Virus record (IMG/VR): IMGVR_UViG_3300036851_000073
Location: 1 to 32,810 of that record
Length of the DNA: 32,810 nt
Source: a virus
Reading direction: 5' to 3' (one strand)
In this document: positions 189 through 29,187 of the stretch, piece after piece
How the letters are laid out: each line of letters begins with the position of its first letter
Numbering within the stretch: the first letter of the stretch is position 1
Notes under the pieces: model-generated
What the model was told of the DNA's origin: nothing
What the model saw: the letters and a program-made list of their open reading frames with translations, nothing else
The model's database searches: none
Program-made: the position numbers and the translations under genes

Positions 189-268
189 GACTGCTCCAAC
201 GGCTGCATCCTAGAGACCGCGGCCTCGTACTCACCCGCGCGGATCATGTCGGCGATCGTGAGGTTCAT
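185..268 (-). CDS. 27-residue ORF coupled to RAMP-like gene
   Basis: A very short frame (MNLTIADMIRAGEYEAAVSR, then seven more residues) starts at an ATG that overlaps the stop of the 222-residue gene (ATGA) and ends in a TGA that overlaps the GTG of the next gene (GTGA). Such stop-start overlaps recur throughout this operon, which argues that it is translated by coupling. The peptide looks like one amphipathic helix with acidic and alanine residues. No function can be assigned; chance is possible at this length. Confidence 0.45.
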   Translation of the reverse strand: MNLTIADMIRAGEYEAAVSRMQPLEQS

Positions 269-933
269 GCCTTGTCCCACGATGTGACGGTGTACTTGCC
301 GAACCCCTGGGAGCGGGAAGCGCCGATGCCCTGGCGCTCACCGGTCAGCCAGATGTGCGCCCACTGCTCGTCGGTGAACTTGTAGTCCGTCTCGACGGTG
401 AACGCGATCTTGGCGTCGGTAACGTACTCCTCGTACTGGATGCCGGTTCCGCGGAAGGTGTGGACGAATCGCTGGGTGATGCCGCTGGCCTCGGTGACGC
501 CGAGGTGCAGCTTGTCTTCGATGACGTGGACGTGCTCGGCGAGGAACGACAGCAGGCCCTTGTTGGTCTTGCCCCAGCCGCGCATCTCCAGCTTGCCGGC
601 GGCAACGGCGACGGAGGCGGCTTCCTTGAGCGCTGCCTTCAACTGGCGACCCTCAATAAAGAGTCCGTTCTCGTCGCGCTTGAAGCCGTTCAGGTGCTTC
701 TGCGCGTCGACGATCTTGGCGGCCTCGTCGGCGGTGACGCCGCGCTCGGCCATGGTCTCGGCGACCATCTCGCGCAGCAGGTCGTCCTTCGCGCCGAGCT
801 TGGTCCGGAGCCAGCCTTCGGCCACGTTCTGGTCGGTCGGGGTGCCGCCAGCGATGGTGCCGACCAGCAGCGTGCCGTTGAAGCGGTGGGGCCAGGATTT
901 GACGTTGAACTTCTGGAACACGCTTTCAGTCAT
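265..933 (-). CDS. RAMP-like (Cas7-like) phage protein
   Basis: A 222-residue soluble protein. Two features recall the RAMP superfamily of CRISPR RNA-binding proteins. The first is a central segment (FIEGRQLKAALKEA, near residues 92-105) that resembles the [IP]-x-G-x-x-[LI]-[KR]-x-[AG]-[LI]-[RK] motif of Cas7/Csm3/Cmr4 proteins. The second is a C-terminal glycine-rich loop, GERQGIGASRSQGFGKY, which closely follows the GxGxxRxxGFG loop of RAMPs and is followed by a last beta strand. It begins with MTESVFQKFNVKSWP, with AGAGAGAA as ribosome site 9 bases upstream. No cas gene or CRISPR array is visible nearby. It lies in the early operon immediately downstream of a C-rich repeat region. RAMP assignment is by motif only; RNA binding is inference. 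It could be a phage family that shares the loop by convergence. Confidence 0.8.
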   Translation of the reverse strand: MTESVFQKFNVKSWPHRFNGTLLVGTIAGGTPTDQNVAEGWLRTKLGAKDDLLREMVAETMAERGVTADEAAKIVDAQKHLNGFKRDENGLFIEGRQLKAALKEAASVAVAAGKLEMRGWGKTNKGLLSFLAEHVHVIEDKLHLGVTEASGITQRFVHTFRGTGIQYEEYVTDAKIAFTVETDYKFTDEQWAHIWLTGERQGIGASRSQGFGKYTVTSWDKA

Positions 934-1496
934 TTCAGTTCTTCTCTCTGGTTAGTCGGTAAGAGGTGGAGCGGCGAGTGGGGGGTGGGGCTGGGAAGTC
1001 GGATTAGGCGGGGGCAGTCGGTAGTGACTGGATCTGGGTCGGTGCGGGTTGTCGGTGCGGGTAGGGCGGGAAAGGGCTGCGCGGTAGCGGCTTGGCGTGG
1101 GCTGTCGGTGCGGGCGGAGACGACATGGGTGGCGGCGGGTGGTCGGGCAGGCGAGGGCTGACGGGGGCAGGTCTGCGGTGGGCTGGGCAGTCGGGTAGGG
1201 GCGGATGCGGGCGGGGATGGCGCGCGTCGGCACGGGTCGTCGGTGAGGGGTGATACGGGGCGACGCGGGGTGGTGTGGGACGTCGGGTGGGGGACGAGTT
1301 GGGTGGAACTGGGCTGGGGGGTCGGGCTGGGGACGAGTTGGAGAGGACATGGCTGGGGCAGTCGGGATGGGCAGGGCTGAGATGGAAAGACGAGGGCGGG
1401 CCTGGGAAGTCGGGACGGCTGGGGACGAGACGGGAAGGGAGGACCAGGGAAGTCGGGTAGGTGTGGGGTCGAGGCGTATTGGGGGGGCATGGGTCG
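934..1496 (-). repeat. C-rich CCGACTNCCC repeat region upstream of RAMP-like gene
   Basis: About 560 bases without a convincing gene. On the minus (transcribed) strand the sequence is strongly C-rich and carries about 15 copies of a motif near CCGACTNCCC. On the plus strand this reads as GTCGG cores beginning near 955, 998, 1017, 1038, 1051, 1104, 1142, 1190, 1226, 1239, 1282, 1321, 1361, 1409 and 1452. Most steps are 36-53 bases, with a few inserted extra copies. A second word, CTCGTCCCC, occurs three times between the motifs (plus-strand GGGGACGAG near 1291, 1330 and 1421). The last copy ends 16 bases before the ATG of the RAMP-like gene. Spacers are not conserved and the copies fall in different reading frames, so repetition is at nucleic-acid level. 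The plus strand is rich in GGG runs and could form G-quadruplexes. Possible roles are a replication origin with iterons, a structured or unstructured leader RNA, or a protein-binding array. Confidence 0.75.
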
Positions 1497-2033
1497 TCAG
1501 GCGGCCTTGTTCTTGGGCGCTCGGATCGACGAGCGCAAGCGGAGGTACTCGTCCTCGGTCAGGACGTCTGCGGTGGTCTTGCCAGCGGGGATGCGCTTCG
1601 CAACCGCACGATGAAAGGCGGCCTCGAACAGCGCGGCATTGGAGCGCTTCACGTGCTCGCCAGCGACGAACAGGTGATCCGCGCGCGTCATGTCACCGAG
1701 GCGTCGGCGGAGCATGTCGTCGCTGACCACGAAGTGCAGGTCGAACGCCTTCAGCGCGTCGGAGTCGCCGTCACCGAACCGCTCGGCGGCATCCTTGAAG
1801 GCAGACCGAGGAGCGTCCGCAGCCCGCCTGCCGCGACGGGACCGGGCCTGGTCCCCCAATACCTGAGTCACGAACTGCTCGGCGTTCGCGTTCAGCCAGC
1901 CGGCCAGCAGGGAGGGGTTCGTCTTGCGCAGTTCGGCCACCAGATCGGCAGCCAAGACAGGCAGGATGTAATCCCCGCTGGGGATGCGCTGATCAACGAA
2001 CGCTTGGAATTCGGCCCGGTAGTCGCGTGCCAT
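1497..2033 (-). CDS. Hypothetical early phage protein, 178 aa
   Basis: A soluble, charged protein of 178 residues starting MARDYRAEFQAFVDQ, with AGGAGAGC about 4 bases before the ATG, a strong ribosome site. It is rich in helix formers. An arginine-rich patch (RSRRGRRAA, near residues 63-72) and a basic C-terminus (SSIRAPKNKAA) could contact nucleic acid, but no known domain is recognised. It follows the 82-residue gene by 11 bases and is followed by the C-rich repeat region, which is the main break in this otherwise compact operon. Function unknown. Confidence 0.85.
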   Translation of the reverse strand: MARDYRAEFQAFVDQRIPSGDYILPVLAADLVAELRKTNPSLLAGWLNANAEQFVTQVLGDQARSRRGRRAADAPRSAFKDAAERFGDGDSDALKAFDLHFVVSDDMLRRRLGDMTRADHLFVAGEHVKRSNAALFEAAFHRAVAKRIPAGKTTADVLTEDEYLRLRSSIRAPKNKAA

Positions 2034-3337: not shown

Positions 3338-3607
3338 TTAGGAAGCGCGCGGCTGTCGCGTGCGCGCTTCGATGAAGGCCTCGATGTCGTCAGCCCGGAC
3401 CCTCGTCCGCGACCGCTTGGCGGTGGACGAGGCCATGTCCACGGCCCGCAGATCGCCATCGGCGATCAGCTTGTAGACCGTGTTAGGCGACACGTCCAGC
3501 TTCTCGGCCGTCTCCGGAATGGAGTACAGGAGCCGGGTGTCGCCGACACTCTTCAGCAGTTCACTGAGCTGATCGGCCAGCTGCTCGGCGCGGGGCTTCG
3601 GGCTCAT
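3338..3607 (-). CDS. xis: Excisionase-like helix-turn-helix protein
   Basis: 89 residues from MSPKPRAEQLADQLSELLKS. Residues about 26-85 form a winged-helix DNA-binding domain of the excisionase/AlpA (HTH_17, MerR-like) type: YSIPETAEKLDVSPNTVYKL is the helix-turn-helix, and RVRADDIEAFIEA is the conserved C-terminal part that follows the wing. The N-terminal 25 residues form an extra helix. Being second in the early operon, divergent from repressor and integrase, fits a recombination directionality factor, but a role as early transcription regulator (Cro-like) is also possible. The ATG overlaps the stop of the upstream gene (TGATG). Confidence 0.8.
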   Translation of the reverse strand: MSPKPRAEQLADQLSELLKSVGDTRLLYSIPETAEKLDVSPNTVYKLIADGDLRAVDMASSTAKRSRTRVRADDIEAFIEARTRQPRAS

Positions 3608-3979: not shown

Positions 3980-4492
3980 GTGGCCAGGAAGATGACCGCA
4001 GGGATGCAAGCTGCTGGGCGGGAGCTTCGCCGAAGGCGGAACGACATCCAGTTGACCCAGGAAGATCTCGCGGAGAACTCCGGGGCATCCCGTCGCGCCA
4101 TCCAGGATTTCGAGGCGGGTCTCAGGTGGCCACGCGAGTCGACACTGGGCCATCTGGAGCACGCTCTCGGCTGGGACCGCGGGTACCTGTCCGAGTACGC
4201 CGCCCGCGTCGATGCTCTGGAGGCTGACGAATCGGGAGATGACGGGGAGCGGCAGATCCAGGAGATGCCGTACCTGCTGCCGGCGGATCGGGAACTATTC
4301 CTGAAGATCTACCGGACCCGCCGAGATGACGACGCGGTGTTGCGTCTCGCGGAACTGGAGCGGCTGCGTGAGGCCGCGCGGTCACATCCTGACGCGGAGG
4401 TCGCGGGCCATTTGGTGGCAGCGTTCGACCGTCAGATCGCGGACCTGCGCAGCCGCGGCTACGAGTCGGTACCTATCGAGACCGAATCGTGA
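3980..4492 (+). CDS. XRE-family immunity repressor
   Basis: 170 residues from a GTG start. Residues about 11-66 are a lambda-repressor-like XRE helix-turn-helix (LTQEDLAENSGASRRAIQDF is the core, followed by EAGLRWPRESTLGHLEHALG). The C-terminal half is charged and helical without a LexA-type peptidase Ser-Lys signature, so induction by RecA-stimulated self-cleavage is unlikely from the sequence. CATACT lies 6 bases before the GTG and is the best -10 box, so this mRNA may also be leaderless, which is common for actinophage repressors. Its position divergent from an excisionase-like gene and upstream of the integrase supports the immunity repressor call. Confidence 0.85.
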   Translation: MARKMTAGMQAAGRELRRRRNDIQLTQEDLAENSGASRRAIQDFEAGLRWPRESTLGHLEHALGWDRGYLSEYAARVDALEADESGDDGERQIQEMPYLLPADRELFLKIYRTRRDDDAVLRLAELERLREAARSHPDAEVAGHLVAAFDRQIADLRSRGYESVPIETES

Positions 4493-4938: not shown

Positions 4939-6021
4939 ATGGCCCACATCCGCAAGCTGAAGTCGGGGAAGTGGCAGGCCACGGTCCGCCACCCCTCCGG
5001 GCAGCGTTGGTCGAAGACTGACCCGTTGAAGCGGGTGGTGCAGCAGTGGGCCAGCGACACCGAGGCGGCGATGCGGCGCGGCGACTTCATCGACCCGGCC
5101 GCCGGCAAGATGACGCTCGGGGACTGGTGGGTGAAGTGGTCCGCCACCCGGCGGGTCGAGTCCGCCACGGCCGCGAAGAACACCTCCCACTGGCGGGTGC
5201 ATGTCGAACCCGCCTTCGGGAGGTGGCCGCTCGCGACGATCAAGTCGTGGGACGTGGAGAAGTGGGTCAGCGATATGGTGGCCGCGAAGGTCGGGCCTCC
5301 CACGGTCGCGGCGTCGCTGAGTCTCCTGACTCACATGCTGAATGCCGCGGTGAAGCACCAGCTGGTCGGCGCCAACCCGGCGTCACTGGTGAGCGCGCCG
5401 ACCGTGCCGAAACACAAGGACCGGTTCCTGTCTCGCGATGAGGCGGCGCGGCTGCTCGACCAGTTCGACGGGGTGAATCGGCTGTTCGTGGAGGTGCTAC
5501 TGGGGACGGGGTTGCGGTGGGAGGAGGCCACTGGTCTGGACGGCCGGCACGTCAACTTCCTCCGCAGGACGATCACGGTGGAGCAGGCACTCGGCAGAGA
5601 CCGGCAGATCAAGCCACCGAAGACCCGTGCCGGCTACCGGGATGTGCCGTTGACCGACGAGCTCACGGAGGGGCTGTCACGGCATGTGGTGAACCTGGCC
5701 AAGCCGGTGTTCCAGCAGCCGAACGGGGAGAGGTTCGACTACTCCAACTGGCGGTCGCGGGTGTGGGTGCCTGCGGTGAAGGCGGCGAACCTGGCGGACC
5801 CGCAGCCGACGCCTCATGATTGCCGCCACACGTATGCGTCGTGGCTAGGTGAGCAGGGTGTGTCGCCTCAGGACCTTGCTGCGCTGCTGGGGCATTCGGA
5901 CTGGCGGATGGTGCAGCGGTACGTCCATTCGTCGGAGGCGCGTATGGACAGGGCAAGGGACGCGTTGGGCGTACCCTCGAACAAGAGTGCCCGGCACAGC
6001 GGCAAGGCTGCACCGGGCTGA
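4939..6021 (+). CDS. int: Tyrosine integrase
   Basis: 360 residues, the usual length of actinophage tyrosine integrases. Residues 1-55 form the arm-binding domain (MAHIRKLKSGKWQATVRHPS). Residues about 58-155 are the SAM-like core-binding domain. Residues about 160-345 are the catalytic domain. The catalytic set is visible: Arg193 (TGLRWEEA), Lys228 (PPKTRAGYR), His293 and Arg296 (HDCRHTYASW), His319 (LLGHSDW) and the nucleophile Tyr328 (QRYVH). It catalyses site-specific recombination of attP with the host tRNA-Ala gene. The attP core lies about 620 bases downstream. The gene follows the small membrane protein by 2 bases. Confidence 0.97.
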   Translation: MAHIRKLKSGKWQATVRHPSGQRWSKTDPLKRVVQQWASDTEAAMRRGDFIDPAAGKMTLGDWWVKWSATRRVESATAAKNTSHWRVHVEPAFGRWPLATIKSWDVEKWVSDMVAAKVGPPTVAASLSLLTHMLNAAVKHQLVGANPASLVSAPTVPKHKDRFLSRDEAARLLDQFDGVNRLFVEVLLGTGLRWEEATGLDGRHVNFLRRTITVEQALGRDRQIKPPKTRAGYRDVPLTDELTEGLSRHVVNLAKPVFQQPNGERFDYSNWRSRVWVPAVKAANLADPQPTPHDCRHTYASWLGEQGVSPQDLAALLGHSDWRMVQRYVHSSEARMDRARDALGVPSNKSARHSGKAAPG

Positions 6022-7111: not shown

Positions 7112-7450
7112 TCAGCCGAGGTCGTCGCTGATCCGGATCTGGATGTAACCCCTGGTCGGGAAGGTTTGCTTGTGGCCACCCGGCCAGGTCGCCTCGAACT
7201 CCACCAGCAGCAGCCCCGCGGCGGCGGTCTGCGGTGAGACCCACTGGTGGATGACGGTGGCCTTCCACTTGTCGGTCGGGTCCACTACCGGGGTGGTGGT
7301 GGCGTTGATCAGGAGGGCCGTCTCCCCACGTAGCCGGCCGAGGATCTTCCACGACTCCACGAGGGTCAGGTCCACCGTCGTCGGGGATGCGACCAGGTCC
7401 ACGACCAGGTCAGGTTCCAGGTCACCGCGTTTCGGTCCGTCGATCGTCAC
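7112..7450 (-). CDS. Minor structural protein, last gene of structural arm
   Basis: 112 residues from MTIDGPKRGDLEPDLVVDLV. The chain is mainly beta strands (VDLTLVESWKILGRL, ETALLINATTTPVV, KATVIHQWVSPQ, GLLLVEFEATWPGG) and fits small phage proteins of the BppU-like N-terminal type that form part of the tail tip or baseplate. The ATG overlaps the stop of the repeat-bearing tail protein (ATGA), so the two are coupled. The terminator lies about 45 bases after its stop. Confidence 0.7.
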   Translation of the reverse strand: MTIDGPKRGDLEPDLVVDLVASPTTVDLTLVESWKILGRLRGETALLINATTTPVVDPTDKWKATVIHQWVSPQTAAAGLLLVEFEATWPGGHKQTFPTRGYIQIRISDDLG

Positions 7451-8766
7451 TCGGGGCTCCTAGCGGTAGCGGTAGACACGGCCGGAACAGCGGCAGCGGT
7501 GAGGGTCGCAGCGCGTGGGGCCGCGACGGTGGAGTAGTCCCGGACGGTGGCGGTCACTTCCTCGGGAGCCTCGAACTGGGCCACGACCTCGGCCGCGCCG
7601 GCCAGGAGTGCGGTGATGGACAGGGGGCCCGTAGCGATCCGCTCGAGCAGGGCGGTACCCGAGAGTGTCGCCGTCCCCGAGAGATCGCCTGAGGCGACGC
7701 GTGTGGCCTCTGATGCGCCCGCTAGCGTGGCCGTGGTGGTCAGGTCACCTGCTGCCGTGCGGACCAGCAGGCCGTCGCCTGTGAGCCCAGCGGTGACCGT
7801 TAGGTCTCCTTCGGCGGACAGGCCACTGAGCACGTCGGCAGCACCGGTCAGGGTTGCGACGGCGGAGAGATTCCCGCTGCCAACCTTGGCTACCGATGCC
7901 GCACCGGTAGTGAGGACCGTGGCCACGAGGTCGCCGAGGACCGGCTTGATCCCGGTAGCCGCACCCGTGAGAGCAGCGACAGCAGCAAGGGTACCCACTG
8001 CGGACATCGCCAGGGATGCGGCACCCGAGAGGGTAGCGGTGGATGACCGGTCACCTGAGGCCGACTTCTCGGCCGAGGCAGTTCCAGCGAGGGACGCGGT
8101 AGTTGATGCGTCGCCGGTCGCGGAGTGGGTCGTGAACGACGGCACGAGCTCCAACGCGACGACGTAGGCCGCGGTGCCCGCCGTTGCACTCGTCCACGCG
8201 GCAGGCGACTCCGGGACCCCAGCCGTGAGCCCGGTGAGCTTGTCCGCGATGACTACGCACGTGCCCCCGGATCCACCGGTGGCGAACGAGCCGCGCACCG
8301 CGTACCCCGCAGGGGCGGAAGGGACCACGGAACTCGACACCCGGTCCATGTAGATCAGGACGATCGCCGACCCGCTGTCCGTGGGGGTGATGCTCGGACT
8401 GTTGTGGCTGGTGACGCCCGTACCACTCGTCTCGTTCTGCGAGGTGACGTTGGTGATGCTGGGGTTGTAGCCGCGGTACAGCGCGATCACACCAGTCTGG
8501 CGGTTCGCGCCACCACAGATCAGCGACACGTCCCCGGATTCCGAGCCGGTGCTGTCCAAGCTGGCAACGATGGCGCGCAGGGAGCCGTCCGCGTTGGTGA
8601 ACTCGGACGTGAACCCCGAGGGCGGCTCCGTGCGCGTCTGCGTGTTGTCGCTCGCCCATCCCACGATCGCGACGTCGTCGGCGTTGTGCGCCGGCCAGGT
8701 GGTCCCGGTGAGGGTGGTGACGGAGGTGGTGGTGGACGAGGCGTCAGCCGCTACGAAGGTGCCCAT
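7447..8766 (-). CDS. Tail protein with nine 20-residue repeats
   Basis: 439 residues, with AAGGTGAGCG before the ATG. Residues 1 to about 210 form a beta-rich domain that is clearly related to the first 210 residues of the Gp37-like tail protein at 16368-18362 (shared TTSVTTLTG, ESGDV, ETSGT, YMDRVS). Residues about 212-395 consist of nine units of 20 residues with consensus GDLxxTATLxGAA. The same unit occurs three times in the other protein. The C-terminal 40 residues are low in complexity. It is likely a surface-exposed tail fibre or tip protein. The repeats suggest length variation by recombination between 60-bp units. Confidence 0.82.
   Translation of the reverse strand: MGTFVAADASSTTTSVTTLTGTTWPAHNADDVAIVGWASDNTQTRTEPPSGFTSEFTNADGSLRAIVASLDSTGSESGDVSLICGGANRQTGVIALYRGYNPSITNVTSQNETSGTGVTSHNSPSITPTDSGSAIVLIYMDRVSSSVVPSAPAGYAVRGSFATGGSGGTCVVIADKLTGLTAGVPESPAAWTSATAGTAAYVVALELVPSFTTHSATGDASTTASLAGTASAEKSASGDRSSTATLSGAASLAMSAVGTLAAVAALTGAATGIKPVLGDLVATVLTTGAASVAKVGSGNLSAVATLTGAADVLSGLSAEGDLTVTAGLTGDGLLVRTAAGDLTTTATLAGASEATRVASGDLSGTATLSGTALLERIATGPLSITALLAGAAEVVAQFEAPEEVTATVRDYSTVAAPRAATLTAAAVPAVSTATARSPE
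7570..8135 (-). repeat. 60-bp coding repeats, nine units
   Basis: Nine consecutive degenerate units of 60 bases inside the 439-residue tail gene, each encoding x-[AS]-x-GDLxxTATLxGAAxxxx. Units have diverged, so selection keeps the protein pattern rather than the DNA. The first complete unit encodes HSATGDASTTASLAGTASAE and the last IATGPLSITALLAGAAEVVA. Confidence 0.75.
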
Positions 8767-10961: not shown

Positions 10962-11621
10962 CTAGTTGCCCGCGGGCGGATCGATCACGGCCAGCCGGCA
11001 GGGGCCCTGGGCAGTGCTCGTGGTTCCGTCGGTGTAAGTGATGACCCAGTGGGACTCGGCACCGTTGCCTACACAGTCGGTGTCGGAGATCCCTCGGCCC
11101 TGGGTGCCTTGCGGCCCTACTGACCCGGGTTCGCCTTGGGGCCCGGTCTCGCCGTCGGCGCCAGTCGGGCCTTGATCGCCCTTCTCACCTGTAGCCCCGG
11201 GTTCACCCTGCGGTCCTTGGGGCCCGGTCTCGCCTCGCTCTCCGGCGGCCCCTGTGGGACCTGACGGGCCAACACAGCGAGATGGCTCAAGCAGGCACTG
11301 AGGAGACCTGCCCGTGATGCCGATCGGGCCTTGCTTGCCCTGGATTCCCGGAGGCCCCTGAATTCCCTGCAACCCGCGCGGCCCCTGAGAGCCTTGGGGA
11401 CCCGCCGGGCCTTGGCCGCCAGGCTTCCCTTCTGCCACAGGCTGTCCACCGAGGGAGCGGACCTGTGCCGCGAGCGCGGCGTTGTCGGCCTGCGTCTGCT
11501 CGAGCTCGTTCCAGAAGAACGCGCCGGCACCGACCACCACCGCGAGGACTGCGGAGCAGAGCAGGGCCAGCAGCAGCACCACCAGGTCCCGCCGCTGCTT
11601 CGTGTGCTGGGACTCGGGCAT
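10962..11621 (-). CDS. Membrane-anchored collagen-like protein
   Basis: 219 residues. Residues 12-36 form a membrane segment after a basic start (SQHTKQRRDLVV), giving a type II anchor with the rest outside. A short coiled coil (NELEQTQADNAALAAQVRSL) follows and could trimerise. Gly-X-Y triplets run from 65 to 104 and from 118 to 177, interrupted by a Cys-containing break (PQCLLEPSRC). A small C-terminal domain (ESHWVITYTDGTTSTAQGPC) carries two further Cys. This is the order expected for a trimeric collagen-like stalk. It lies directly upstream of the endolysin, an unusual place for a fibre, so a spanin-like or cell-surface role is possible. It may alternatively be virion-associated. Confidence 0.82.
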   Translation of the reverse strand: MPESQHTKQRRDLVVLLLALLCSAVLAVVVGAGAFFWNELEQTQADNAALAAQVRSLGGQPVAEGKPGGQGPAGPQGSQGPRGLQGIQGPPGIQGKQGPIGITGRSPQCLLEPSRCVGPSGPTGAAGERGETGPQGPQGEPGATGEKGDQGPTGADGETGPQGEPGSVGPQGTQGRGISDTDCVGNGAESHWVITYTDGTTSTAQGPCRLAVIDPPAGN

Positions 11622-12576: not shown

Positions 12577-13302
12577 ATGACACGACCGTTGGGCCTTGGT
12601 GCGCCCAGATCCAACAAAGGCGACCGGGGCGTAGAGAAGAGGCTCACCGCACTCGCTGGCCTGACGCCGCTCAAAGGCGAACGGCTGCTTGACGTCGGCT
12701 GCGGTGACGGCACCTACACCAGGCGTTTCGCCGAAGGCTGGGAACAAGTCACCGCTGTAGACGTCGAACCCGCGCGGCTCATCGACTTCCGCACCGAGAT
12801 CGCGGGCACCGAACTCGACCGCATCGTCGTACGGCAGATGCCCGCCGAGCAGCTGGACCTGCCGAACGATGCGTTCGACACGGTCACCACCATCGAGGTG
12901 CTGGAGCATGTGCAGGATCTCGACCAGACGATCAGCGAGATCAACCGCGTACTCGAACCCGGCGGCCGGTTCCTCATCACGTCACCGAACCGGTGGTTCC
13001 CGTTCGAGACCCACGGGTTCTTCTTCCTGCGGAAGCGGAGGTGGGCACCGAGGTACAGCCTGTTCCTGCCATGGATCCCGCCGCTGCACCGCAGACTGGC
13101 GGACGCGCGATCCTTCACCGTGCGGGGACTGTCGCGGCAGATCGAAGGCCATGGCTTCACCCTCACCGGGGTGGACTACATCATGCCGCCGTTCGACCGG
13201 TCCGGGCTGGGCGGGAAGATCCGCCGACTCACGGACCGGGTCGAGCGGTCCCGGTTCAAGTGGTTCGGGATGGCATTGGTGCTGGTGTTCGAGAAGGACT
13301 AG
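12577..13302 (+). CDS. Class I SAM-dependent methyltransferase (moron)
   Basis: 241 residues of the UbiG/Methyltransf_11 type. Motif I LLDVGCGDGT (residues 37-46) binds the methionine part of SAM, VDVEP (61-65) the adenosine ribose, and LDLPNDAFDTVTTIEVLEHV (93-112) and LEPGGRFLITSPN (126-138) are the following strands. The C-terminal part is rich in aromatic and basic residues (GFFFLRKRRWAPRYSLFLPW) and may bind substrate or the membrane. It is alone on the plus strand inside the minus-strand late arm, with its own promoter and AGGAG/GGGGGA ribosome sites, so it is a moron. The substrate is unknown; small molecule, lipid or glycan precursors are more likely than DNA because no DNA-methyltransferase motif is present. 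Confidence 0.93.
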   Translation: MTRPLGLGAPRSNKGDRGVEKRLTALAGLTPLKGERLLDVGCGDGTYTRRFAEGWEQVTAVDVEPARLIDFRTEIAGTELDRIVVRQMPAEQLDLPNDAFDTVTTIEVLEHVQDLDQTISEINRVLEPGGRFLITSPNRWFPFETHGFFFLRKRRWAPRYSLFLPWIPPLHRRLADARSFTVRGLSRQIEGHGFTLTGVDYIMPPFDRSGLGGKIRRLTDRVERSRFKWFGMALVLVFEKD

Positions 13303-15432: not shown

Positions 15433-16368
15433 TCAGAGGTCGGCGTAGCGGTAGTGCCAGACCGGGCTACCGCTGATGATCTGGCCGGCGGCCATCGTCA
15501 CGTCGTTGAAGCCCATCGACCCGGTGCCCGCCGAGATATACAGGCGGCACGGGCTGGACCCGGCCCAGATGGTCTCGGTGATGTCCACCCCGCCGCCGGG
15601 CCACAGCGCGGACGGGAGGGTGACGGAGAAGTCGACATCCGTCCCGGTGCCAGTGACAAGCTTGGTCCAGTTGAAGGCGACCTTCACCATGCCATTGCGG
15701 ATGCGCGCCTTCATCGTCCCGCCAAACCCTGCGGGAGCAGTGAGCGCATCATACCATCCGGTGTCACTGTCAGCCCTGAACGTCCATCGCTCTGACCCGA
15801 AGCCGCCGAGGAGGATCTTGCCGTTGTCCGGCGAGGTCACCAAGCGACCGGGGAAGGCGGTCGGCGCAACACTGTCGGCGGTCTGCGCCAACAGTCCGTC
15901 TACCAACCAGACCCGCCGGTCGCCTTGGGCGATCGTCGTCGCCGAGTAGTCCGCAGCGCTGTGCGGCAGCACTCCCTGACAGAGTGGCACGTCGAAGACG
16001 ACGCCCGGGGACTGGTTGTAGGCCGGCGGTTCCGGGCTGCTGCTCGGGGTCCCGGCGATCAGGATCAGCGCGGCTGCGTGAGTGGTCCAGTTGATCCTCA
16101 TGACCATCAGGTCGATGCGGGGCAGGCCGGACGTGTTCGCCGGCGCGGCGGCTGCCGCTGACGCCGCCGCATCCATGGTCACGTGGACGCCTGGGGCGAA
16201 GCACTCGCCGGGCTGAATCAGCATGTTCCGCGCGCCGGGTACGCGCGTAGCGGCCAGCGACGAGCCACCGTAGCCGCCGATGACACCGTGACCACCGACC
16301 GCGCCCATGATCTTGGAGAACTCGGTCTCGCTGACGGTGCCGACGAAGCCAACCGGGTCGATCGCCAT
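15433..16368 (-). CDS. Minor tail protein
   Basis: 311 residues from MAIDPVGFVGTVSETEFSKI. The N-terminal part (EFSKIMGAVGGHGVIGGYGG, ARNMLIQPGECFAPGVHVTM, GLPRIDLMVMRINWTTHAAA) is a known actinophage minor tail pattern in which an upper baseplate or fibre-attachment domain precedes a variable C-terminus (residues about 190-311, beta-rich). The ATG overlaps the stop of the Gp37-like gene (TGATG). Likely links the tail tip to the fibre. Confidence 0.8.
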   Translation of the reverse strand: MAIDPVGFVGTVSETEFSKIMGAVGGHGVIGGYGGSSLAATRVPGARNMLIQPGECFAPGVHVTMDAAASAAAAAPANTSGLPRIDLMVMRINWTTHAAALILIAGTPSSSPEPPAYNQSPGVVFDVPLCQGVLPHSAADYSATTIAQGDRRVWLVDGLLAQTADSVAPTAFPGRLVTSPDNGKILLGGFGSERWTFRADSDTGWYDALTAPAGFGGTMKARIRNGMVKVAFNWTKLVTGTGTDVDFSVTLPSALWPGGGVDITETIWAGSSPCRLYISAGTGSMGFNDVTMAAGQIISGSPVWHYRYADL

Positions 16369-18362
16369 CAGGCCTCCCTCTCGAACTTGTTGATCCGGGC
16401 CCGCAATCTGCGAAGCTCCAGATAGACGGCGCTCGCACGCTCCGCTGCGCCCAGGTCTCCGACGACCGGCTGCACATCGACGCCGTTCTCAACGGAGTCG
16501 GTGATGGTGACCTGCCGAACCTTGTCGGTCAGCGTCACGGACGGGAGTAGCTCCGTCGTGACGGTGTCGCCGAGGTTGTAGGTCTCGCCGAACCGCATCG
16601 ACTCCGTATCCCGCGGTACGACGGTGAACGAGTAGGTGGGGACGTTCTCCTCGAGGTCGTCGAGACCCTGCTCGTAGCGTTCGGCGTCGGTGTCACCGGA
16701 GCTGTCGTAGAACGACTCCGTGATACCCCAGCCCGTCTCCGAGGATGTCAGCTTCGACAGCATGTAGCGGCGGGCCGCGTCCTCACCGTCGAGGCCGATG
16801 ACGTTGCGGGTCTTCTTCGGGCCCTCACTGGTGAACTCCCAGTCACGGAGGTTCCCCAGCGAGCGGGAGAGCCTGACCGGTTGCGTCGCGGACTCGTAGA
16901 CATCGAACGACAGCTCGCCTGCCACCTGAGTGACACGCAGCCCCAGTCCGGTGATGTCTGCGATCCGGGCGCAGGCCTCGAGCACCGTCTCCCACCGCGG
17001 CCCGTAGGTCCTCACCGCGCCACGAGCCAGGTTGGTTGCCACCGACAATCCGGGGACAGCGAGCCGGGTGACACAGTTCCGGGTGACCCAGTACTTGATC
17101 ATCGTCTCGGCGTCGTCGGTGATCGCGTCCCGTACGGTCGGCTGGGTGAACCCCACCCCGTCGGCGGGGAAGGTCGCGAGCGGGTTGGGGAACGCCAGTC
17201 TGCGGTTGAGCCAGATCAGGTCGTCGTACCCGTAGACCTCAACGTCGTCGGTGTTCCCGTTGCGCGCGCGTCTGATCCCGAAGGCAGGGCCGGACATGAT
17301 CCGTGTTCCCCGGTAGTCGATCGTGACCCTTCGCCCAGCAGCGGTGAAGAGGTTCACTCCACCGTCAGTGAGGGCCAGCGTGAACCGCCACGACCCCACC
17401 TGGTTGTGACGGAGGATCACCTCGCTGGAGGTGTATGAGCCGATCCTCCCGGCCTTCACGAACGGGGTGGAGGTTCCGTCCCACACCTCGATCAGGAACG
17501 GTGAGCGGGGCTCGGCGGACGCGACCGGTACAGGGGGGGCCTCGGTCACATCCGCCGCGCCGGCCAGGGTGGCGGTAGCCGCGAGGTTTCCCGTCGCGGT
17601 CCGCGTGAGACCTGCAGCACCGACGAGACCTGCGGTTGTCGCCCGGTCGCCTGAGGCTTCGCGGGTGACTGCTGCAGCGCCCGTAAGGGACGCGGTGGCG
17701 GTCCTGTCTCCTGTGGCTTCGAGTACGGGTGCGAGCTCGACCAGGTAGACCATTGCCGACGTGGACCCGACCGAGACGTTCCAGTCCCCCGGCGTGAACG
17801 GCGTGAGGCCGTGCGTACCGGACAGGTCGTCGGCGACGTGCATGAAGATGCCACCCGTGCCCGACGTGCCGAACTCAAGCCTCGAGGTGAACCCGGACGG
17901 CGGGGTAACCGTCGTGTTGCCGGTGGACACGCGATCCATGTAGACGATCACGAATCCGGAGCCGGTCTTCTGTGGCGTGATCGCCGGGGACGCGTGGGTC
18001 GTTACCGCGGTGCCGCTGGTCTCGGGCTGGTTGACGATCTGCTGAACGTCGGTGTAGCCATTCCAGACGCCGAGCGCACCGACCTGCCGCGCACCGGTGG
18101 TTGTCGTGAGGGTGACATCCCCGGACTCGGAGCCGGTCATCGAAGAGGGGATCAGCTTGCCGATGACGGCACGCAGGTTCGTATCAGTCAGGTCCGCGAG
18201 CGACGTGAACGCCGCGTCCATGGTTCCGGTGTTGGTGCTGTCGCCGTAGCCGTGGGCAAGCAACGCCAGGTCGTCACCGGAGTGAGAGGGCCAGGTGACG
18301 CCGGTCAGAGTCGTGACGCTGGTTGTCAGAGCACTGATGTCGCCGGCGACAAAGGTGCCCAC
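16368..18362 (-). CDS. Gp37-like tail tip protein fused to repeat domain
   Basis: About 664 residues. The GTG at 18362 is chosen because it aligns with the start of the related 439-residue protein (MGTFVA); a TTG two codons earlier is also possible. Residues 1 to about 210 are the shared N-terminal beta domain and residues about 214-274 carry three 20-residue GDLxxTATLxGAA repeats. From about 290 the protein is a Siphovirus ReqiPepy6 Gp37-like tail protein (EVILRHNQVGSWRFTLALTD, RIMSGPAFGIRRARNGNTDD, YGYDDLIWLNRRLAFPNP), the tail-hub or Tal-like protein of actinophages. The fusion of a repeat domain to the hub is unusual. C-terminal coiled coil (ELRRLRARINKFERE). Confidence 0.87.
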   Translation of the reverse strand: MGTFVAGDISALTTSVTTLTGVTWPSHSGDDLALLAHGYGDSTNTGTMDAAFTSLADLTDTNLRAVIGKLIPSSMTGSESGDVTLTTTTGARQVGALGVWNGYTDVQQIVNQPETSGTAVTTHASPAITPQKTGSGFVIVYMDRVSTGNTTVTPPSGFTSRLEFGTSGTGGIFMHVADDLSGTHGLTPFTPGDWNVSVGSTSAMVYLVELAPVLEATGDRTATASLTGAAAVTREASGDRATTAGLVGAAGLTRTATGNLAATATLAGAADVTEAPPVPVASAEPRSPFLIEVWDGTSTPFVKAGRIGSYTSSEVILRHNQVGSWRFTLALTDGGVNLFTAAGRRVTIDYRGTRIMSGPAFGIRRARNGNTDDVEVYGYDDLIWLNRRLAFPNPLATFPADGVGFTQPTVRDAITDDAETMIKYWVTRNCVTRLAVPGLSVATNLARGAVRTYGPRWETVLEACARIADITGLGLRVTQVAGELSFDVYESATQPVRLSRSLGNLRDWEFTSEGPKKTRNVIGLDGEDAARRYMLSKLTSSETGWGITESFYDSSGDTDAERYEQGLDDLEENVPTYSFTVVPRDTESMRFGETYNLGDTVTTELLPSVTLTDKVRQVTITDSVENGVDVQPVVGDLGAAERASAVYLELRRLRARINKFEREA

Positions 18363-19324
18363 TACCAAGCCCGCCAGAACTTCGGCGTGAACTCAACCTC
18401 GACCTTCGTCCCCGCGTCGGAGCCGACCAGCGTCAGCCCCAGCTGCGTGGACGCAGACGCAGGGATCGCGCCGAACTCCACCGCGCCGGCATCTCCCCAC
18501 ATGTTCGCCCCCAGGTCGTCGACCATGGTCTGCTTCTCGGGGTTGGAGTCGATGCGGATCCAGTGGTTGAGGGTCTTGGTGATCGGGAGCGCGATCGACT
18601 TCCCGCCTACGGTTCCGGTAAACGAAGTAAACGGGCCATGGATCGTCCACGTCGGCCAGACGTCCACGTCGCCGGGGTTGGTGACGATCGCGTTGTCGGT
18701 GGTCTGCGAGTTCGCGATGTAGAAGTCGGGGGCGAAGGTTCCGACCCCGCCGCCGTAGAAGTTCACGCCCGTGACGGACTCGAACTCCAGCAGGACCGAG
18801 TCACCGTAGTAGTACGGCTGCTCCGCGGTGAAGCGGAGCTTGTGGCTGTACCAGTACAGGCCGTAGTTCGAGGACAGGAACTCCTCGTCAGCCCCAGACA
18901 GGTACCGCAGGTTCAGGTACCGCCGGTTCCCCAGCGGGTCGGCGACAGTGAGGACGCCGACCTTGTCCGGGCGCAGCGTCGACATGAACCGCGCCTGCTC
19001 CGCCCGTGCCTCCGTGGGCGTGGAGCCCGTGACGAAAACCGGGAAGTCAAAGACGCGCTGCTGCACCCGGTACCCCTGCCAGGTCGCGCCGTCGGTCGTG
19101 GCGGACTCGGTGAAGTACTGGGTGACCGGCGGCATCCCGAGACCGTTGCGGCCCTCAAGTTGCATCACCGCCGACGAACCGAGTCCGCCCTGGATCTGCC
19201 ACGTCTCGGCGTTCCATCCTGTCCAGGTGAACGACAGCAGGTCCGTCGCGATGTACGGATCCCCGATCCGGGTGGGGACATCGACGGGCGGGGTGACGGT
19301 TCCGGGGCTGACCACTACCGGCAT
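18362..19324 (-). CDS. Distal tail (Dit-like) protein
   Basis: 320 residues. The order of an N-terminal hub strand region (LLSFTWTGWNAETWQIQGGL), a central part (VFDFPVFVTGSTPTEARAEQ, ARFMSTLRPDKVGVLTVADP) and a C-terminal galectin-like part (WPTWTIHGPFTSFTGTVGGK, NHWIRIDSNPEKQTMVDDLG) matches the siphovirus-type tail component family. It would form the ring at the tail tip below the tape measure. It lies 1 base after the tape measure stop, as expected for a Dit protein. Confidence 0.85.
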   Translation of the reverse strand: MPVVVSPGTVTPPVDVPTRIGDPYIATDLLSFTWTGWNAETWQIQGGLGSSAVMQLEGRNGLGMPPVTQYFTESATTDGATWQGYRVQQRVFDFPVFVTGSTPTEARAEQARFMSTLRPDKVGVLTVADPLGNRRYLNLRYLSGADEEFLSSNYGLYWYSHKLRFTAEQPYYYGDSVLLEFESVTGVNFYGGGVGTFAPDFYIANSQTTDNAIVTNPGDVDVWPTWTIHGPFTSFTGTVGGKSIALPITKTLNHWIRIDSNPEKQTMVDDLGANMWGDAGAVEFGAIPASASTQLGLTLVGSDAGTKVEVEFTPKFWRAW

Positions 19325-28455: not shown

Positions 28456-29187
28456 TCAGATGAGATAGCCGGCCTGCTGCAGGAGGCTCAGTGCTTCGGT
28501 GCGGTCGTCGCCTGCGCGGCGGTAGACGGCATGCAGCCGGGCACTTCCCGGCAGGGTCATGTACAGCGACTCCCTGCCGTTCACGACACGGCTCATGTTC
28601 GCGCCGTCTTCGATCGCGGCCTGTTCGATCTTCGTCAGGCCGCGGATCTGGCCTGAGGCGAACAGCGCTTCGGGGTCGGTCCGGACATCCCCGGCTACAT
28701 TCTCGCGGGCCGGGATATGGCGGCATCCACAGTTCGGGTGCCTCAGGAACCCCTGATTCCAGGCGAACCACTTGCCTGCCTGGATCGCGCAGCGGGGGCA
28801 GCACGGCGCGTTCACCATGCGCACCCACCCGACACGATCGCGGGTCGTGATCGCCACGCCTGCCGCGACCCTTGCTGTGTCGCTGATCGCCGTTGAGACC
28901 ATCGACTCGAGGCGCCTCAGATCCGACGCCTCAGCCAATGGGGGCCGACTGTCTGCCGCGACAACTGCGGTGTTCACGGCAGCCTCAGGTGGGGCGTCGA
29001 TCCCCTGCTCGGAGAGCATGTCGTCCACCGAGGCCGCAGCGTCTCGCGCCGCGTAGGTCTGCAGCAGGATCAGGGCTCTCGTCGCAGAGGCTGGACTTCC
29101 AAGACCCCACGCCCTGCGAGCCGCAGCGAGACCCACGAGTACGTAGCGCTGCTGCTGACGGTAGTGCGCGTCAGCCGACCGGAGCAT
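28456..29187 (-). CDS. MuF-like minor capsid protein
   Basis: 243 residues, overlapping the portal gene by 17 bases. A helical N-terminal half is followed by the signature region WVRMVNAPCCPRCAIQAGKW and HPNCGCRHIPAREN, a Cys/His cluster found in MuF-like head morphogenesis proteins of actinophages (VG15-like). Such proteins are packaged with the portal; some carry toxin domains at the C-terminus, which this one does not obviously have. Confidence 0.85.
   Translation of the reverse strand: MLRSADAHYRQQQRYVLVGLAAARRAWGLGSPASATRALILLQTYAARDAAASVDDMLSEQGIDAPPEAAVNTAVVAADSRPPLAEASDLRRLESMVSTAISDTARVAAGVAITTRDRVGWVRMVNAPCCPRCAIQAGKWFAWNQGFLRHPNCGCRHIPARENVAGDVRTDPEALFASGQIRGLTKIEQAAIEDGANMSRVVNGRESLYMTLPGSARLHAVYRRAGDDRTEALSLLQQAGYLI

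Follow-up and report, generated by a model that had tools for sequence, protein, structure and literature searches.

A probable VIPR-like RNA-guided locus with gapped pentanucleotide guides in a temperate phage

Introduction

What a phage does with a protein resembling the Cas7 and Csm3 subunits of CRISPR systems is the question raised by the gene at positions 265-933 (minus strand, ATG at 933) of the window, that is, the whole stretch of DNA that was analysed, an IMG/VR virus record of 32,810 bases. A framework for the answer is offered by VIPR, a class of systems in which a RAMP protein encoded by a phage goes with a vap gene and with RNAs built of GGY/NN pentamers (PMC13142463, preprint first posted 27 April 2026). 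These RNAs read DNA with a one-base skip, usually at the wobble base, and are directed against competing phages (PMC13142463). The accessible part of the preprint describes seven types and words the vrRNA motif as GGY/NN 'or a related consensus', with variable arrays allowed (PMC13142463); a full-text literature search returned no further paper on VIPR. Very probably, the locus studied here is an RNA-guided system of the VIPR-like kind carried by a temperate phage. The combination of a CRISPR-like protein with a five-letter gapped array and with three guides that match genes of other phages gives it the look of a VIPR weapon in another spelling.

A Cas7/Csm3-like RAMP protein in a temperate phage

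The gene at 265-933 was characterized through its reading frame, a family alignment and a predicted fold, and its 222-amino-acid product is a predicted guide-RNA-binding subunit. The gene lies at the extreme end of the leftward block of early genes in the window. Because the window also encodes an integrase (4939-6021), a repressor-like HTH protein (3980-4492) and an excisionase-like protein (3341-3565), as assigned with PHROGs, it is considered to be a temperate phage, and the phage early operon described in an earlier note on this DNA corresponds to an operon in the leftward early block of such a phage. Several other frames were noticed by eye. Two structural ORFs at 7447-8766 and 16368-18368 (minus strand) resemble each other in their N-terminal domain (VGTFVA.D.S..TTSVTTLTG.TWP-like), after which come degenerate repeats rich in alanine and threonine; this suggests duplicated tail or decoration modules. 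A phage protein with collagen-like G-X-Y repeats is encoded at 10962-11621 (minus strand), and a class I methyltransferase-like ORF at 12577-13302 (plus strand) lies on the opposite strand within the late gene block.

Searches of Pfam, PHROGs and PDB sequences yielded no family for the 265-933 protein, NCBIfam returned only Cas6 (E 0.029), a search against plasmids gave no match, and Rfam gave no match in 10 sources. Microcystis phage Mae-JY09 is the one deposited phage with a relative, and the remaining relatives come from viral contigs and from two genomes of actinobacteria. The resulting set comprises 77 distinct loci (1.27 Mb), into which 57 near-identical loci were folded; the neighbour and array surveys of 47 loci additionally exclude the duplicates L026, L034, L017, L052, L053 and L054.

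The earlier note had assigned the protein to the RAMP superfamily on the basis of two stretches, LFIEGRQLKAALKEA and GERQGIGASRSQGFGKY, both of which are present letter for letter in the 222-codon minus-strand frame. In the C-terminal loop, none of the 46 aligned family sequences departs from G202, G204, R207, S208 or G212, and L91, R96, K103 and E104, in or beside the IEGRQLKAAIKE segment, are equally invariant, so both stretches are conserved rather than fortuitous. They are also retained in the Microcystis phage protein at 36% identity. The collection of homologues that the note had proposed thus upholds the two stretches themselves, whereas the literal motif that it had cited, P-x-S/G-x-[IL]-[KR]-G, is absent, the corresponding segment being I-E-G-R-Q-L-K-A.

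Structure prediction, likewise proposed in that note, supports the Cas7/Csm3-like fold. The AlphaFold model, built with 46 sequences, has a pLDDT of 87 and a pTM of 0.81. In Foldseek, 105 PDB chains are matched at E <0.001, with type VII Cas7 as the best (E 1.8e-7) and type III Csm3 next; VIA-align gives a Z of 11.8 for type VII Cas7 (166 residues, rmsd 4.4) and 11.5 for Csm3. One of the best viral models for this fold is titled 'Cas system-associated RAMP superfamily protein'. PADLOC gives weak matches to Cas6 (24), Csm4 (22) and Csm3 (13) in the 46 family members, and the family profile matches the PDB only weakly, with Cas5 and Csm4 amid unrelated entries such as FtsZ. RNA binding by the protein is plausible.

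No conserved cas gene was found beside the relatives in 47 loci, in agreement with the statement of the earlier note that cas neighbours are lacking. Its description of a single-gene system, in contrast, does not hold, since a pentamer guide array lies near the gene in nearly all loci and a second protein is conserved. The latter, the sole other conserved neighbour, is a helical protein of ~171-195 amino acids found in 29/47 loci of the neighbour survey; in the window it is encoded at 1497-2033 (minus strand, 178 amino acids, all-helical) and represents a candidate vap. It matched no fold in the PDB (best Foldseek E 3.2; best Z 3.3), so a Cas11-like role is not supported and was dropped.

A pentanucleotide array with a recurrent C beside the gene

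The main feature of the locus, absent from the earlier note, is a noncoding array of predicted guides at 950-1496 (minus strand), composed of pentamers of the form C-N-N-n-H with CGAC as punctuation and delineated by C autocorrelation, dinucleotide shuffles and a hidden Markov model. The vipr-like gene and the gene upstream of it are separated by ~560 bases, of which, on the gene strand, 54% are C and 16% G. The first CGAC comes immediately after the upstream stop codon, and the last ends ~16 nt before the vipr ATG. Within the array, a C recurs almost invariantly every 5 nt, and a 3-nt phase jump occurs at each CGAC, giving units of 3+5n nt. The autocorrelation of C accordingly peaks at lags of 5, 10, 15, 18-20, 23, 28, 33, 38, 43, 48 and 53. 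The period-5 score of the window array has a z of 5.9 against dinucleotide shuffles, and z is at least 3.0 in 33 of 35 tracts (three duplicates included), the exceptions being L003, which was wrongly delimited, and L040 with a z of 1.8. As RNA, the window array folds worse than 100/100 shuffles. No sigma-70 promoter was found near it.

The letters of the pentamer are constrained to very different degrees. C is present at 96-98%, NN is nearly unbiased even in high-GC phages, the third letter is loose, and the last is a base other than G. Unit lengths peak at 28, 33, 38, 43, 48 and 53 nt, mostly 5-10 pentamers, and 11 pairs of similar units differ once at C, compared with 15 and 18 times at the two N positions. 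In the sister phages L051 and L055, the flanks and the array ends are shared while most units differ; inverted repeats at the array start were noticed by eye in both.

The array accompanies the gene closely. The hidden Markov model of the pattern places an array beside the gene in 43/47 loci and at most 700 nt from it in 73/77 distinct loci, a count that includes the doubtful L107, with a short array on the other strand. The loci that lack one are L083, with none within 10 kb on either side, and L029, L093 and L096, where the gene lies at the contig end; L083 is on the same contig as L031, and its vipr-like gene is present. Control sequence (55 loci, 560 kb) produced two array calls, one of which falls within coding sequence. 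Phages of the actinophage group carry the array upstream of the gene. Divergent members, AT-rich marine phages among them, carry it downstream, and these marine phages retain only the C every 5 nt. Arrays are also found in Microcystis phage Mae-JY09 and in a prophage of Streptacidiphilus carbonis (L057).

Two further observations concern array layout. Two to five separate guide arrays surround the vipr gene in L036/L092, L046/L115, L104, L108 and L134. In the group with downstream arrays, inverted repeats precede the array, and in L048 a sigma-70-like promoter was noticed by eye ~740-790 after the vipr start; this promoter-like site and the inverted repeats may start or cap a guide RNA.

Reading the code with a one-base skip

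The 77 loci contain 1209 distinct complete CGAC-to-CGAC units, 454 of which have at least 8 pentamers and were compared with the same 77 loci after masking of the arrays, with 100 order shuffles as the control. When the two letters after each C were taken as the guide and one target base was skipped, 4/454 units matched perfectly, whereas the shuffles gave 0.12 on average and never more than 1; none of the other 11 phase-and-skip combinations fell outside its shuffle controls. The first matches to be found, without being forced to, each fill exactly one CGAC-to-CGAC unit, and in 4/4 of the perfect matches the skipped base is codon position 3. Two of these four guides target vipr genes of rivals; the other two target a portal-like gene and a terminase large subunit (PHROG E 3.8e-39, site VRGPHGLGK). 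A fifth, independent unit, from L058, matches another portal-like gene in wobble phase; in the search that gave it, two of three matching units are circular, since the added contigs had been retrieved with the patterns of those units, so that L058 alone counts as independent. The targets of L118 and L058 are presumed to be portal-like on inspection by eye, and PHROGs returned no family for that of L118.

At the level of sequence, the guide is demonstrated to read its target as NNxNNx with one base skipped, and natural targets in these phages follow the one-base skip rule with wobble phase, as in VIPR. A further candidate, an L080 guide against L075 (14/14), was rejected, as in the likely frame the base it skips is not the wobble base and shuffled controls also yield matches of 14 letters.

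Guides of the window and their targets

Targets were found for 3/13 segments of the window array, with comparison to the large collection of viral contigs confined to units named below. The three units and a fourth lie on the minus strand and are composed of CGA and pentamers. The unit at 959-1001 (CGA plus 8 pentamers) has the NN series TT AG CA CC TC GC AC TT and was compared with the 77 loci. It matches 16/16 in the vipr genes of 11/77 loci other than its own, with the skip at the wobble position, and its target codons there spell [K/N]VAEGWL[K/N], for example KVAEGWLK. The match to the vipr gene of its own locus is 14/16, both misses falling in the first dinucleotide, where that gene has an arginine codon.

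A search of viral contigs with the unit at 1055-1107 (CGA plus 10 pentamers) yielded a 20/20 match to one contig, antisense to AYRKLRAFVL in an HNH-terminase frame and again with the skip at wobble. The unit at 1146-1193 (CGA plus 9 pentamers; NN = TG AG AC AG TG CC AG TC TG) was compared with viral contigs and with genomes. It matches 18/18 in 50 viral contigs, against 3 for the pattern in shuffled order, and 46/50 sites are antisense to LGHLVLH, in HELGHLVLH-type codons assigned to ImmA/IrrE (Peptidase_M78) metallopeptidases, with the skip at wobble. One of the target proteins is a Peptidase_M78 with HTH domains (Pfam E 2.9e-17), that is, of the ImmA/IrrE type. Metallopeptidases of this type control the induction of prophages and mobile elements. 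In 391 Streptomycetales genomes, the same pattern has 29 matches in 28 genomes, compared with 0 for the backward control, and 10/10 of the sites that were read correspond to AHELGHLVLH. The fourth unit, at 1365-1412 (CGA plus 9 pentamers), had no target in viral contigs.

A near copy of the 1146-1193 guide is present in the array of L066, with three AG to AT changes; at the target motif these amount to isoleucine/methionine codons in place of leucine. The L066 guide matched 14 contigs, 3 of which encode HE[I/M]GH-type metallopeptidases; most of the other matches are to one unrelated gene in common, in another codon phase. An adaptation of the guide to a target variant might at best be hinted at by these changes.

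Proposed mechanism and rival explanations

It is proposed that the candidate accessory gene, the guide array and vipr form one leftward-transcribed operon, as their co-orientation and tight spacing suggest. The RNA of the array would be a string of guides in which CGAC serves as punctuation, with cutting presumably at or near CGAC. One Vipr subunit would probably occupy each pentamer and hold its invariant C, leaving the two following letters to act as the guide and to read the target as NNxNNx; we infer both expression of the array and binding of the target by the guide. Since the guides are in phase with the codons, the skipped base is the wobble position, and a synonymous change would therefore provide no escape. 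Escape would be costly where the targeted codons are invariant and their wobble base goes unread. Of the guides in the window, one appears to be aimed at rival vipr genes and, by hitting their core, would disarm the competitor. Another appears to be directed at ImmA/IrrE metallopeptidases, which would leave rival prophages uninduced, and a third at a packaging-associated gene; guides of this last kind would prevent rival particles from forming. By analogy with the VIPR system of Escherichia phage SUSP1, the effect is likely to be repression of competing phages or prophages.

The alternative that survives best retains the same array and protein and changes only the target: the ribonucleoprotein would silence or mark the transcripts of rival phages instead of acting on DNA. 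In its favour, each of the 7 supported guides runs antisense to its target gene and, as RNA transcribed from the array strand, would base-pair with the message; in addition, the closest folds include the RNA-targeting backbones of types III and VII. On the other hand, the NN composition is compatible with roughly equal shares of sense and antisense guides, the 7/7 could be due to chance (two-sided 0.016), and the related SUSP1 system binds double-stranded DNA (PMC13142463). An mRNA target is therefore regarded as a minority possibility, at perhaps one chance in five.

Far less probable is an autoregulatory leader or a Rho-dependent control element, with the RAMP protein merely binding its own mRNA. 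A C-rich, G-poor and unstructured RNA directly 5' of the start codon, as seen in the actinophage group, would suit such a role, yet in divergent members the array follows the gene instead of preceding it, some phages have it at several sites, and AT-rich phages keep only the C every 5 nt. A leader would also not decode to conserved codons of other phages, so the target matches already contradict it. Slightly less credible still is a DNA element read as a double strand, such as iterons or sites of replication or recombination: its tandem spacing and single orientation would be expected, but period 5 with a 3-nt phase jump misfits helical phasing, the units are hypervariable between sister phages, and the coding matches are noncontiguous. 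Least likely of all is the proposal of the earlier note that the protein acts against host CRISPR as a mimic of a Cas7 subunit, for which the Cas7-like fold and the phage origin speak, while no link to CRISPR loci was seen and the conserved partner is a phage-targeting array whose decoded guides aim at genes of other phages and at ImmA/IrrE.

Comparison with VIPR and other systems

The VIPR-like reading is strengthened by a series of correspondences with type II of SUSP1, in which a phage RAMP protein is accompanied by one conserved accessory gene (here a candidate), each pentanucleotide of a tandem, same-strand RNA has two variable letters, the target is read with one base skipped at the wobble position, and the targets lie in competing phages, including other vipr genes and genes of the lysogeny switch (PMC13142463). 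More generally, VIPR loci are minimal phage loci with long noncoding flanks and no cas genes, their RAMP homologue has an RRM core and a glycine-rich loop (here with invariant loop residues), and the NN of their tandem pentanucleotide repeats is hypervariable (PMC13142463); the present locus shares these features. The SUSP1 locus (KT454805), in which vipr was taken by layout and glycine loop to be the frame 28474-29061 on the minus strand, has the same one-strand layout and a GGYNN run of 55 nt on the vipr strand. Vipr of SUSP1 and the family described here are marginally similar (hhalign E 0.0064, probability 5.9%).

Several features set the locus apart. The conserved letters are C and non-G rather than GGY, and no run of at least 5 GGYNN occurs on either strand of the window. 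Unlike the array of SUSP1, those found here are long, contiguous and CGAC-punctuated, with units of 3+5n, and unlike VIPR type II, for which a structured 3' tail is described, the units abut with only CGAC between them. The candidate accessory protein differs from that of VIPR in being helical and without a known fold, and it has no match to a published vap. Given how the accessible text of the preprint words the consensus, there is a real chance that the C-N-N-n-H locus is one of the seven published types. At rather less than even odds, it can be viewed against that same text as a type outside the seven, with a C-pinned code and CGAC-punctuated arrays able to hold >50 guides, in actinophages, a cyanophage and marine phages. 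Such a type would form a fast-renewed multi-target arsenal with a broad guide against the rival Vipr core that spares its own gene by one codon, and it may act on mRNA.

Resemblances to other systems are more limited. The RAMP fold and the C-terminal glycine-rich loop are common to the class 1 CRISPR-Cas backbones (type III Csm3, type VII Cas7), but here CRISPR repeats, cas genes and adaptation genes are missing and the guide is gapped; the array has 5-nt repeats with CGAC, and no cas neighbour is conserved in 47 loci. Type IV-B Csf complexes, in the available description, also involve a Cas7-like filament not built on CRISPR RNA, but they comprise several subunits and heterogeneous RNA with no dedicated guide array (PMC7937560). 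TIGR-Tas systems, as far as the available text goes, share guide arrays encoded by phages but employ Tas proteins, another family, whereas the present array goes with a RAMP protein (PMC12045711). RNA anti-CRISPRs (Racr) are, in the part of the source at hand, phage noncoding RNAs that assemble with a Cas7-type protein; they mimic CRISPR repeats, in contrast to the guides for phage genes found here (PMC10651486).

Significance

The one-base skip code of VIPR has been recovered independently and purely from sequence, in arrays with other conserved letters, and the rules for decoding them are now supplied: C pins the pentamer, the next two letters guide, and CGAC ends the guide. The 1209 distinct complete guides of the 77 loci make phage targets directly countable. 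The guide against the rival Vipr core and the guide against the ImmA/IrrE active site constitute concrete predictions on conflict between phages, and the same two guides bear on how a gapped RNA code would outrun synonymous escape.
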